From contig JAJPHT010000046.1 in the NCBI GenBank assembly GCA_021325135.1, positions 124,001 to 188,000 on the forward strand: a DNA stretch of 64,000 nt, read 5' to 3'. The translations under genes were made by a program, and so were the position numbers. This stretch comes from Pseudomonadota bacterium (GTDB taxonomy: Archaea > Thermoplasmatota > SW-10-69-26 > JACQPN01 > JAJPHT01). The notes beneath the pieces are model-generated. The model did not search any database. It saw only the letters and a program-made list of their open reading frames with translations, and was not told the DNA's origin. Positions 59,882 to 62,854 of this stretch are shown here, piece by piece. Each line of letters opens with the position of its first letter. The stretch's first letter is position 1.

Positions 59882-60154
59882 TCACTCCGTCGGCGGCAGC
59901 GTGCAGTCGAAGACCTCGCGGCCCAGGACGAAGTAGCCGCACTCCTGGTGGCCGGCCGCGCTGCCCTGGTGGGCGTAGACGACCGTCTGGCCGTCCTCGA
60001 CGCAGGTGAGGCGGTACGAGTCGCCCACGTCGTACTGGCTGGTCCACAGGTCGCAGGGGCCGACGCGGTGGTCGCCGAAGGGGTTGGGGACGGGAGTGGC
60101 CAGCGCGAGGGGCGTGGCGGCGAGCAGGATCGTAAGAAGCAGAAGAGTGCGCAT
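59882..60154 (-). CDS. VGPC-family secreted mini-protein A (90 aa)
   Basis: Signal peptide MRTLLLLTILLAATPLALA, mature ~71 residues: VGPCDLWTSQYDVGDSYRLTC, then ECGYFVLGREVFDC. Four Cys (VGPC, RLTC, ECG, FDC). Shares the VGPC motif and Cys pattern with four following genes. About 50 bases separate it from paralogue B. No known family. Confidence 0.75.
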   Translation of the reverse strand: MRTLLLLTILLAATPLALATPVPNPFGDHRVGPCDLWTSQYDVGDSYRLTCVEDGQTVVYAHQGSAAGHQECGYFVLGREVFDCTLPPTE

Positions 60155-60205
60155 GGTGGTGCCTCCACAGGCGCACCACCAGGCGGGAAGATGACGTTTG
60201 CGGGC

Positions 60206-60499
60206 TCAGTTCACGAGGGGGCCGCAGCTGTAGAGGTCGTGGCCGTCGACCCAGTAGCCGCACTCCCACACGAGGCCGGCCTGGCCCTGGTGGAAGTAGA
60301 TGCTGTGGCCCTCGACGTCGCACGTCAGGCGCGACGAGTCGCCCACGTCGAACTGGTTCGTCCAGTAGTCGCAGGGGCCGACGTAGTGGTCGCCGTAGGG
60401 GCTGGGGTGCGGGATCGCGATGGGGCCGGGGAGCGGGCCTGCAAGCGCGAGGGGGGTCGCCAGGAGCGCGAGCGCAGCAAGGACAAGGGGGGTTCGCAT
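60206..60499 (-). CDS. VGPC-family secreted mini-protein B (97 aa)
   Basis: Signal peptide MRTPLVLAALALLATPLALAG. The mature part has PYGDHYVGPCDYWTNQFDVGDSSRLTCDVEG, then WECGYWVDGHDLYSC. Close paralogue of A: the segments VGPCD.WT.Q.DVGDS.RLTC and ECGY.V.G...  are shared. Four Cys at equal spacing. Confidence 0.75.
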   Translation of the reverse strand: MRTPLVLAALALLATPLALAGPLPGPIAIPHPSPYGDHYVGPCDYWTNQFDVGDSSRLTCDVEGHSIYFHQGQAGLVWECGYWVDGHDLYSCGPLVN

Positions 60500-60565
60500 G
60501 GGTGTGCCTCCGCCGCGTGACGGTGGCGGGGAGGCATCACCCTTGCGGCGGAGCAGCGTCGCGGG

Positions 60566-60838
60566 TCAAGCCGGCACGCCGCAGGGGACGAAGACCGTGG
60601 CGCCGTCCACGTTGGCGTACGCGTAGTCGCCCAGCGCGCACGTGCCGTAGCTGGCGCGGGCGGACTGGCCGGCTGCGGCGCAGCCGACGCCCAGCGCCTC
60701 GCCGGGCCAGAGGAGCGACCACGAGACGACGCAGGGGCCCACCGTGACGGGGGGCTGCGGGAGCGAGGGGCGCGCGGCGGCGAGGGGCGCCAGCAAGGCG
60801 AGCGCCACGAGAAGAAGGGCGACACGCACGGCGCTCAC
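60566..60838 (-). CDS. VGPC-family secreted mini-protein C (90 aa)
   Basis: GTG 60838 overlaps the stop of paralogue D (GTGA). Signal peptide VRVALLLVALALLAPLAAA, then RPSLPQPPVTVGPCVVSWSLLWPGEALGVGCAAAGQ and a later GTC and VPC. Four Cys; sequence is more diverged but keeps VGPC and the order of Cys. Confidence 0.7.
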   Translation of the reverse strand: MSAVRVALLLVALALLAPLAAARPSLPQPPVTVGPCVVSWSLLWPGEALGVGCAAAGQSARASYGTCALGDYAYANVDGATVFVPCGVPA

Positions 60839-61116
60839 TCCGTCCCGGGGGAGCACTGCTCCAGGGTCTGGCCGAGGACGCGCAGGTGGCACGAGTGGCC
60901 CAGGAGCGTCATGCTGTCGGCGTAGTCGAAGACCTCGATGCCTTCGGCGGAGCACCCGGCGGCGCGCGACTCGGCGTCCACATTGAAGCCCCACGACGCG
61001 TGGCACGGGCCCACGACGTAGCTGCCGTGGTCGAGGGGGGGCAGGGGCGAGGCCTGCGCGAGGGGCGCCAGCGCAAGGAGGGCCAGGAGGCCGGCCAGGA
61101 CGGGGGCGCGCATCAT
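60835..61116 (-). CDS. VGPC-family secreted mini-protein D (93 aa)
   Basis: ATG 61116 overlaps the stop of paralogue E. Signal peptide MMRAPVLAGLLALLALAPLAQA, then SYVVGPCHASWGFNVDAESRAAGCSAEG, HSCHLRVLGQTLEQC. Its end (SCxLRVxGQTLEQC) is nearly identical with that of E. Confidence 0.75.
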   Translation of the reverse strand: MMRAPVLAGLLALLALAPLAQASPLPPLDHGSYVVGPCHASWGFNVDAESRAAGCSAEGIEVFDYADSMTLLGHSCHLRVLGQTLEQCSPGTE

Positions 61117-61397
61117 TCCCCCTCCGGGGGCGGGCACTGCTCGAGGGTCTGGCCCGCGACGCGCAGGCCGCAGGAGTGGCCCCCGATGGTGGTGCCGTCC
61201 CAGTACGAGAGGACCTCCTGGCCCGCGACCCCGCACGAGACGGAGGTGACGCTGCCTTCGAACCACGTGACCTTCTCCACGTGGCAGGGGCCGACGGTCT
61301 CGTCGACGTTGCCGTTGGGCAGCGGGGGCGCGGCGGACGCGGCCGGGAGCAGGAGAAGCAGGATGAGCAGCGCGGGGAGCGCAAGCAGGGTTCGCAT
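61113..61397 (-). CDS. VGPC-family secreted mini-protein E (94 aa)
   Basis: ATG 61397. Signal peptide MRTLLALPALLILLLLLPAASA. Mature: VGPCHVEKVTWFEGSVTSVSCGVAGQ, then HSCGLRVAGQTLEQCPPPEGE. First gene of the coupled three-gene series E > D > C, since each stop overlaps the next start by four bases. Confidence 0.75.
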   Translation of the reverse strand: MRTLLALPALLILLLLLPAASAAPPLPNGNVDETVGPCHVEKVTWFEGSVTSVSCGVAGQEVLSYWDGTTIGGHSCGLRVAGQTLEQCPPPEGE

Positions 61398-61459
61398 GGG
61401 GGTTTGTGCCTCCGGAAGCGGAGAGCGCCGCTGCACGTTTGGGGATTGCGGGCCCGCAG

Positions 61460-61469
61460 ACCCTTAAAT
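61460..61469 (+). promoter_or_regulatory. TATA-like box of asnS
   Basis: CCCTTAAATG, 26 bases before the GTG at 61493, indicates leaderless asnS mRNA. The opposite side lies 63 bases before the E gene ATG, so E may have its promoter in the same region. Confidence 0.65.
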
Positions 61470-61492
61470 GCCAGGCGTTCCCTGCGGAGGCC

Positions 61493-62854
61493 GTGAGCCC
61501 GCCCCTCGTCTCCATCCGCAGCGTCCTCTCGGGCCAGCACACCGGCCAGAAGGTCCACCTGCGCGGCTGGATCCACCGCTACCGCACCAGCGGCAAGATC
61601 GTCTTCGCCACGCTGCGCGACGCGACGGGCACCCTCCAGACGACGACGAAGAAGGGCGTCGCCGACGACGCGTCGTTCGAGGAGGCCCTCAAGGGGAGCA
61701 TCGAGGCCTCGGTGGAGCTGACCGGCACGGTCAAGGCGGACGAGCGCGCGCCGGGCGGCTTCGAGGTGGGCGTCGAGCAGTTCCACCTCGTGGGAAGCTC
61801 CCACGACTTCCCCATCTACGAGAGCACCGTGGACGCCGACGCGCAGGAGACGCTCCTGGACAAGCGCCACCTCTTCCTGCGCAGCCGCCACCTGGCCAAC
61901 GCCATGATCCTGCGCGCGAAGACGCTCAAGGCCTTCCGCGAGTGGTTCGACGAGCACGGCTTCTTCGAGACGACGCCCAGCGTCATCACCACCAACAACT
62001 GCGAAGGCGGCAGCGAGGTCTTCGAGTTCGACTACTTCGGCCAGAAGGCCTTCCTCAGCCAGAGCAGCCAGCTCTACCTCGAAGCGCTGGTGTTCGGCCT
62101 GGAGCGCGTCTACTGCCTGCTGCCCAGCTTCCGCGCCGAGAAGAGCCGCACCCGCAAGCACCTCACCGAGTTCCAGCACCTGGAGGCCGAGGAGGCCTGG
62201 GTGGACAACAAGGGCAACATGGAGATCCAGGAGCAGCTCGTCTCCTACGTCGCGCGTCGCGTCGCCGACACCGCAGAGGAGCAGCTCGTCGCCCTGGGCC
62301 GCGAGCCGGCGGACCTGCGCAAGGTCACGACGCCGTTCAAGCGCCACACCTACGACGAGGCCATCTCGCTGCTGCGCAAGAAGGACTACGACCGCGGCCG
62401 CGACGCCAAGGGGCGCAGGCGCGGCGCCATCGAGTGGGGCGAGGACCTGGGCGCGCCCGACGAGGCCGCGCTGGTGGAGGGCGAGGAGAAGCCCGTCTTC
62501 GTCATGAACTGGCCCGCCGACATGAAGGCCTTCTACATGCACAGCAACGGCGACGGCACCGTGGCCAACGCCGACATGATCGCGCCCTTCGGCTTCGGCG
62601 AGATCATCGGCGGCAGCCAGCGCAGCACCGACGTCGAGTGGATGAAGGGGCGCCTCGTGGAGCAGGCCAAGCGCGACGGCACCGCGCTGGACCTCAACGC
62701 CTACGAGTGGTACTTCGACCTGCGCCGCTACGGCAGCGTGCCCCACGCCGGCTTCGGCCTGGGCACCGAGCGCGTCGTCCGGTGGCTGGGCAACCTGGAC
62801 CACATCCGCGACGCGACCCCCTTCCCCCGGACGCCGAGCCGCGCGTACCCGTAG
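61493..62854 (+). CDS. asnS: asparaginyl-tRNA synthetase
   Basis: 453 residues from GTG 61493. OB-fold anticodon domain VHLRGWIHRYRTSGKIVFATLRDATGTLQTT, then class II core: ITTNNCEGGSEVFEFDYFGQKAFLSQSSQLYLEALVFGLERVYCLLPSFRAEKSRTRKHLTEFQHLEAE (motif 2), and GSVPHAGFGLGTERVVRWLGNLDHIRDATPFPRTPSR (motif 3). It aminoacylates tRNA(Asn) directly. The REE-like insertion KKDYDRGRDAKGRRRGAIEWGEDLG distinguishes it from AspRS in archaea. Confidence 0.95.
   Translation: MSPPLVSIRSVLSGQHTGQKVHLRGWIHRYRTSGKIVFATLRDATGTLQTTTKKGVADDASFEEALKGSIEASVELTGTVKADERAPGGFEVGVEQFHLVGSSHDFPIYESTVDADAQETLLDKRHLFLRSRHLANAMILRAKTLKAFREWFDEHGFFETTPSVITTNNCEGGSEVFEFDYFGQKAFLSQSSQLYLEALVFGLERVYCLLPSFRAEKSRTRKHLTEFQHLEAEEAWVDNKGNMEIQEQLVSYVARRVADTAEEQLVALGREPADLRKVTTPFKRHTYDEAISLLRKKDYDRGRDAKGRRRGAIEWGEDLGAPDEAALVEGEEKPVFVMNWPADMKAFYMHSNGDGTVANADMIAPFGFGEIIGGSQRSTDVEWMKGRLVEQAKRDGTALDLNAYEWYFDLRRYGSVPHAGFGLGTERVVRWLGNLDHIRDATPFPRTPSRAYP

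Follow-up and report, generated by a model that had tools for sequence, protein, structure and literature searches.

A tandem cluster of five small secreted-type VGPC proteins with four cysteines in a high-GC archaeal genome

Five consecutive genes of an archaeal genome encode small secreted-type proteins which share a VGPC motif and exactly four cysteines. They form a real orphan family that is restricted to one lineage and belongs, broadly, to a familiar kind. We tentatively favor the reading that the VGPC proteins are exported, disulfide-stapled extracellular binding modules which were diversified by tandem duplication. Each protein would be exported by a Sec-type signal peptide and would then form a small, mostly acidic six-strand antiparallel beta-meander of ~60–70 residues. 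The first two cysteines (C1-C2) would staple hairpin 2 and, in proteins A, B, D, and E, the last two (C3-C4) would staple hairpin 5. The mature proteins would bind an extracellular target, such as a surface polymer, a glycan, a peptide, or a partner protein, and tandem duplication would provide variants of differing specificity.

Gene organization

All five open reading frames (ORFs) have been found where the preliminary description had placed them, as minus-strand genes of 90–97 residues at positions 59882–61397 of the window, which is the whole 64,000-nucleotide stretch of DNA analyzed (Table 1). The stop of E and the start of D share a real ATGA overlap, and D has two adjacent ATG codons. 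The D/C overlap, GTGA, exists only with the first of the two GTG starts of C, and the second is a better fit to the M-R start seen in the other members. As the start of C is uncertain, so is the D/C overlap. Therefore, of the coupling of E, D, and C by four-base overlaps that had been proposed, the E/D part stands while the part concerning C was slightly overstated. The gaps from C to B and from B to A are 66 and 51 bases, respectively. We infer that the genes are co-transcribed in the order E-D-C-B-A. In A, B, D, and E (four of the five genes), GGAGG precedes the start codon by 12–16 nt, against a background of 7% per 25 nt. The TATA-like element upstream of E could be a candidate promoter element for E, asnS, or both.

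Table 1. Features of the VGPC cluster and other loci mentioned in the text. Positions are those of the window unless a genome and contig are given (G000, this genome; G001, sister genus; G004, a genome of the same order).
Feature	Position	Strand	Description
Gene A	59882-60154	-	90 aa secreted-type protein; Cys spacing 16/20/11
Gene B	60206-60499	-	97 aa; Cys spacing 16/19/11; most similar to A, with a longer linker rich in Pro
Gene C	60566-60838	-	90 aa; most divergent member; Cys spacing 16/13/18; alternative GTG start at 60829
Gene D	60835-61116	-	93 aa (92 with the second ATG as start); start overlaps stop of E; Cys spacing 16/20/11
Gene E	61113-61397	-	94 aa; Cys spacing 16/20/11; leads the cluster, in divergent orientation to asnS
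Intergenic region 5' of E	61398-61500	-	TATA-like CATTTAAGG ~70 nt before start of E, as read from the sequence
8-Cys family member	G000:C33:34087	+
8-Cys family member	G000:C33:137154	-
8-Cys family member	G000:C40:53960	+
8-Cys family member	G000:C24:22496	-
8-Cys family member	G000:C19:27534	+
8-Cys family member	G001:C102:33215	+
Cys-dense secreted-type protein	G000:C15:35243	-	16 Cys in 164 residues; repeats around C.VN
Cys-dense secreted-type protein	G000:C33:124841	+	18 Cys in 121 residues
Small secreted-type protein	900	+	59 aa, 5 Cys
Small secreted-type protein	51601	+	115 aa, 4 Cys
Small secreted-type protein	G000:C40:66952	-	GP.C.V.L.VY.C......V...C
Small secreted-type protein	G000:C40:121249	-	GP.C.V.L.VY.C......V...C
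Rejected candidate	G000:C40:17387	-	12 bits with one profile
Secreted-type ORF	L078:3379-3540 (G004:C322:5642-5803)	+	Starts MTMRTGILVLSLLLLAPTALA

Shared features of the proteins

The signal-like N-terminus and the VGPC motif, both ascribed earlier to every member, are present in all five sequences. Near its start the hydrophobic N-terminus carries a basic residue, and it is followed by a small-residue (A-x-A-like) cleavage site and a Pro-containing linker, and export by a signal peptide is predicted for the whole family. The mature part consists of ~60–75 residues, with 1–2 basic and 3–9 acidic residues from VGPC onward. The four-cysteine pattern described for the family holds in part. While each protein has four cysteines, the spacing C-x16-C-x19/20-C-x11-C is found in A, B, D, and E and not in C, where the third cysteine is located seven residues earlier and the span from the second to the fourth is unchanged. 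Because the spacing in C is 16/13/18, the full pattern is common to four members and is only partial in C.

Paralogy and selection

The homology of the five proteins has been evaluated with leave-one-out (A, C, and E) and leave-pair-out (A+B and D+E) HMMs against 1000 shuffles of each sequence. The leave-one-out scores are 69 bits for A, 61 for E, and 28.3 for C. A and B score 26 and 21 bits against the profile of C, D, and E, and D and E score 28 and 34 bits against that of A, B, and C. Every member scores higher than the best of its 1000 shuffles, which reach 10–14 bits. This includes the weakest member, B (21 bits with the C, D, E profile, where the best shuffle reaches 12), and the protein C (28.3 bits with the A, B, D, E profile against 10.3). 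The five genes are true paralogues with homology in the mature domain. A/B (58%) and D/E (43%) are the closer pairs, which, with the profile scores, supports the earlier proposal that the cluster grew by duplication.

At the residues conserved between members, the number of identical codons is close to the expectation from codon usage (in A/B, 35 observed and 32.4 ± 2.9 expected). Since these counts match codon usage alone, the synonymous sites are saturated. On the other hand, the protein identity of A/B, D/E, and A/E exceeds that of all 1000 neutral simulations at equal DNA identity, and stop codons arise in most of the simulations. The neutral model is a simple one with independent sites and 72% GC, and the observed gap is clear nonetheless. 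We read these results as purifying selection on the five genes. Nei-Gojobori dN/dS values (0.7–1.7) have been discarded because a GC3 of 95% saturates the synonymous sites, and the codon-usage test has been used instead.

These observations bear on the possibility that the five genes are recently born or spurious ORFs of a GC-rich genome, without a stable function. At 72% GC, long ORFs often arise by chance, and no homologue has been found in any other genome searched. However, the protein is conserved while the synonymous sites are saturated, SD motifs precede four of the five genes, the homology is above that of shuffles, and the fold models of A and E are consistent. This explanation is already disfavored and we consider it highly improbable. 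Furthermore, GC3 (0.94–0.97) and GC2 (0.48–0.60) of the five ORFs are those of coding frames in this genome.

Distribution and host lineage

The presence of RNA polymerase subunit N identifies the host as an archaeon. The asnS gene on the same contig is closest to that of the genome from the same family (68%) and its similarity to other genomes drops with kinship, so the contig belongs to the archaeal lineage.

Searches of Pfam, NCBIfam, and PHROGs have given no match near any cut-off and PDB sequences have given no match, in agreement with the initial impression that no family of this kind is known, and full-text term searches of the literature have found no description of such proteins among the listed titles. 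Within their own genome, the five copies are the only convincing matches. The profile search of archaeal genomes that had been proposed has found no homologue: the profile of the mature domain finds nothing in the six other genomes of the class (seven in total) and nothing above chance among 389 genomes of the phylum. The five-row alignment is too diverse for scans of large collections, and single proteins and pairs have been used as queries. With these queries, pattern-based scans of GTDB contigs, viral contigs, plasmids, and phages have returned no match; such scans are sensitive to close relatives only, cover about half of all species genomes, and possibly exclude records of the same genome. 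The preliminary description had held that a lack of homologues in relatives together with neutral evolution would argue against functional proteins. No homologue has been found in any relative searched, but neutrality has not been borne out by the codon test. Therefore, the proteins are real but lineage-restricted.

Several candidate relatives have been rejected. The full-length profile matches in relatives (best E 2.8e-4, in the relative G005) lie mostly within the signal peptide, and the best of them is an unrelated secreted-type protein in a 217-residue frame with a DHDVGPC start. The matches of the mature profile in the phylum (E 0.004–0.1) are mostly partial and at chance level for 389 genomes. 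A candidate on the same contig as the cluster (G000:C40:17387) scores no better than shuffles.

In four relatives, the region upstream of asnS contains other genes and no VGPC cluster; in one of them (G004) the contig ends ~2.1–2.3 kb from asnS. A small secreted-type ORF runs off the contig end at this place, with no VGPC in its visible part.

Predicted fold and disulfides

The fold prediction by AlphaFold, suggested at the outset, has given one common fold. The models with mature A (pLDDT 86.0) and mature E (pLDDT 82.5) as lead agree on a six-strand antiparallel beta-meander with tight turns. Both models have been built on the same five-row alignment and as a result are not independent. In both, C1 and C2 face each other exactly across hairpin 2 (their sum equals the turn sum), and C3 and C4 nearly do so across hairpin 5, with the sum off by one. 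Based on this fit of the cysteine positions to the hairpin registers, a C1-C2 disulfide is predicted to staple hairpin 2 and, in A, B, D, and E, hairpin 5 is probably stapled by a C3-C4 disulfide. The displaced third cysteine leaves protein C unable to form the second staple at the same place. What the models depict are probably flat beta-sheets, each held by a pair of disulfides. The genome encodes a DsbA-like thioredoxin-fold protein; VKOR and DsbB have been looked for in it and neither has been found.

Comparison of the models with the PDB (Foldseek and VIA-align) and with viral models (Foldseek) returns background-level matches only, and a new fold is not claimed. For OspA-like or lipocalin/FABP-like folds, the best Foldseek E in the PDB is 0.13 and the VIA Z is at most 7.5, within the background of the tool. 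The single-layer beta-sheet of Borrelia OspA is likewise an antiparallel meander and aligns over 65–70 residues (Z 5.5–6.8, rmsd ~4), but with Z at background level and 8–12% identity the likeness is not evidence of kinship.

A sheet of this type could also serve in cell-surface structural or adhesive components, in which sheets joined edge to edge would build a matrix or coat. Open meander sheets could stack, and several similar subunits are encoded in one gene row. The weak likeness to the single-layer sheet of OspA mutants (Z ≤6.8) also points this way, but it is at background level and maybe reflects only a common arrangement. As the proteins have neither an anchor nor a recognized cell-surface domain, we consider a structural role unlikely.

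Proposed function

The neighbors of the cluster are lysS, asnS, a gene for a tRNA_bind-domain protein, and one for an unmatched secreted-type protein. No immunity, exporter, or maturation gene is recognizable among the immediate neighbors, and one that is distant or of an unrecognized type is possible. Because the proteins have no membrane anchor and no recognized catalytic domain, and no recognizable immunity or modification gene is adjacent, binding is their most likely job, a role that we infer mostly from this absence of other signs.

The proteins could instead be secreted antagonists that an arms race and gene duplication would have diversified, acting as archaeocin-like toxins or by inhibiting the enzymes of competitors. 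The proteins are small and highly divergent, carry a predicted export signal and pairs of cysteines, and occur as tandem paralogues in a restricted lineage, all of which fits molecules of conflict. However, no recognizable immunity-like or exporter gene lies beside the cluster, whose neighbors include lysS, asnS, and the tRNA_bind-domain gene. The acidic VGPC proteins also differ from cationic membrane-active peptides, and there is no match among Pfam or phage families. We regard this explanation as possible but doubtful.

In favor of stapled binding modules we have counted the coding composition, the SD sequences, the homology above shuffles, the purifying selection, the A and E models, the cysteine registers, the few basic residues, the DsbA-like protein, and the many other small secreted-type Cys proteins of the genome. 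The broken Cys pattern of C, the failure to find VKOR or DsbB, and the single alignment shared by the models count against them. By comparison with small secreted disulfide-stabilized proteins in general, the VGPC family is alike in its signal-like N-terminus, mature size, even number of cysteines, and tandem paralogues, but it matches no described family by sequence and none significantly by fold.

Small secreted-type cysteine proteins of the genome

A crude scan of 620 kb of the 3.77 Mb genome (contigs C40, C33, and C15) has found 26 small secreted-type proteins with at least four cysteines, including the five VGPC members. The 21 proteins without a lipobox correspond to 34 per Mb. In the sister genus, four such proteins have been found in 463 kb, three of them without a lipobox (6.5 per Mb). 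A genome of the same order, which has a lower GC and is penalized by the filter, has none in 240 kb. In none of the three genomes were the stretches chosen at random. Compared with the sister genus, this archaeon seems enriched in small secreted-type Cys proteins, and the VGPC cluster is apparently one component of this broader set.

As a more speculative and rather doubtful extension, the cluster may sample a large set of secreted mini-proteins, stapled by disulfides and rapidly renewed within one high-GC archaeal lineage. This repertoire would serve for interaction with other cells, would include folds not yet seen experimentally, and would be comparable in style to those of fungal small secreted proteins. 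The extracellular small proteins of archaea are little explored. The VGPC family offers a concrete, expressible target: it is lineage-restricted and subject to purifying selection, its compact fold is modeled with fair confidence, and it belongs to an apparently expanded Cys-protein secretome. It allows one to ask what such archaea export, and how disulfides form when neither VKOR nor DsbB is detected.

Additional secreted-type proteins have been observed in this genome. A dispersed 8-Cys family with the motif SSC..GTCTFTC is represented by five copies in this genome and a single copy in the sister genus, and is confined to these two among 21 genomes searched. Like the VGPC family, its members are small, export-type, Cys-rich, and paralogous, but they have eight cysteines and scattered copies, and there is no detectable homology between the two families (hhalign probability 0.5%). 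Two small secreted-type proteins on contig C40 are alike by eye, with no link by BLAST at E 0.05. Two Cys-dense secreted-type proteins are encoded on contigs C15 and C33, and the window contains two further small secreted-type proteins with five and four cysteines.
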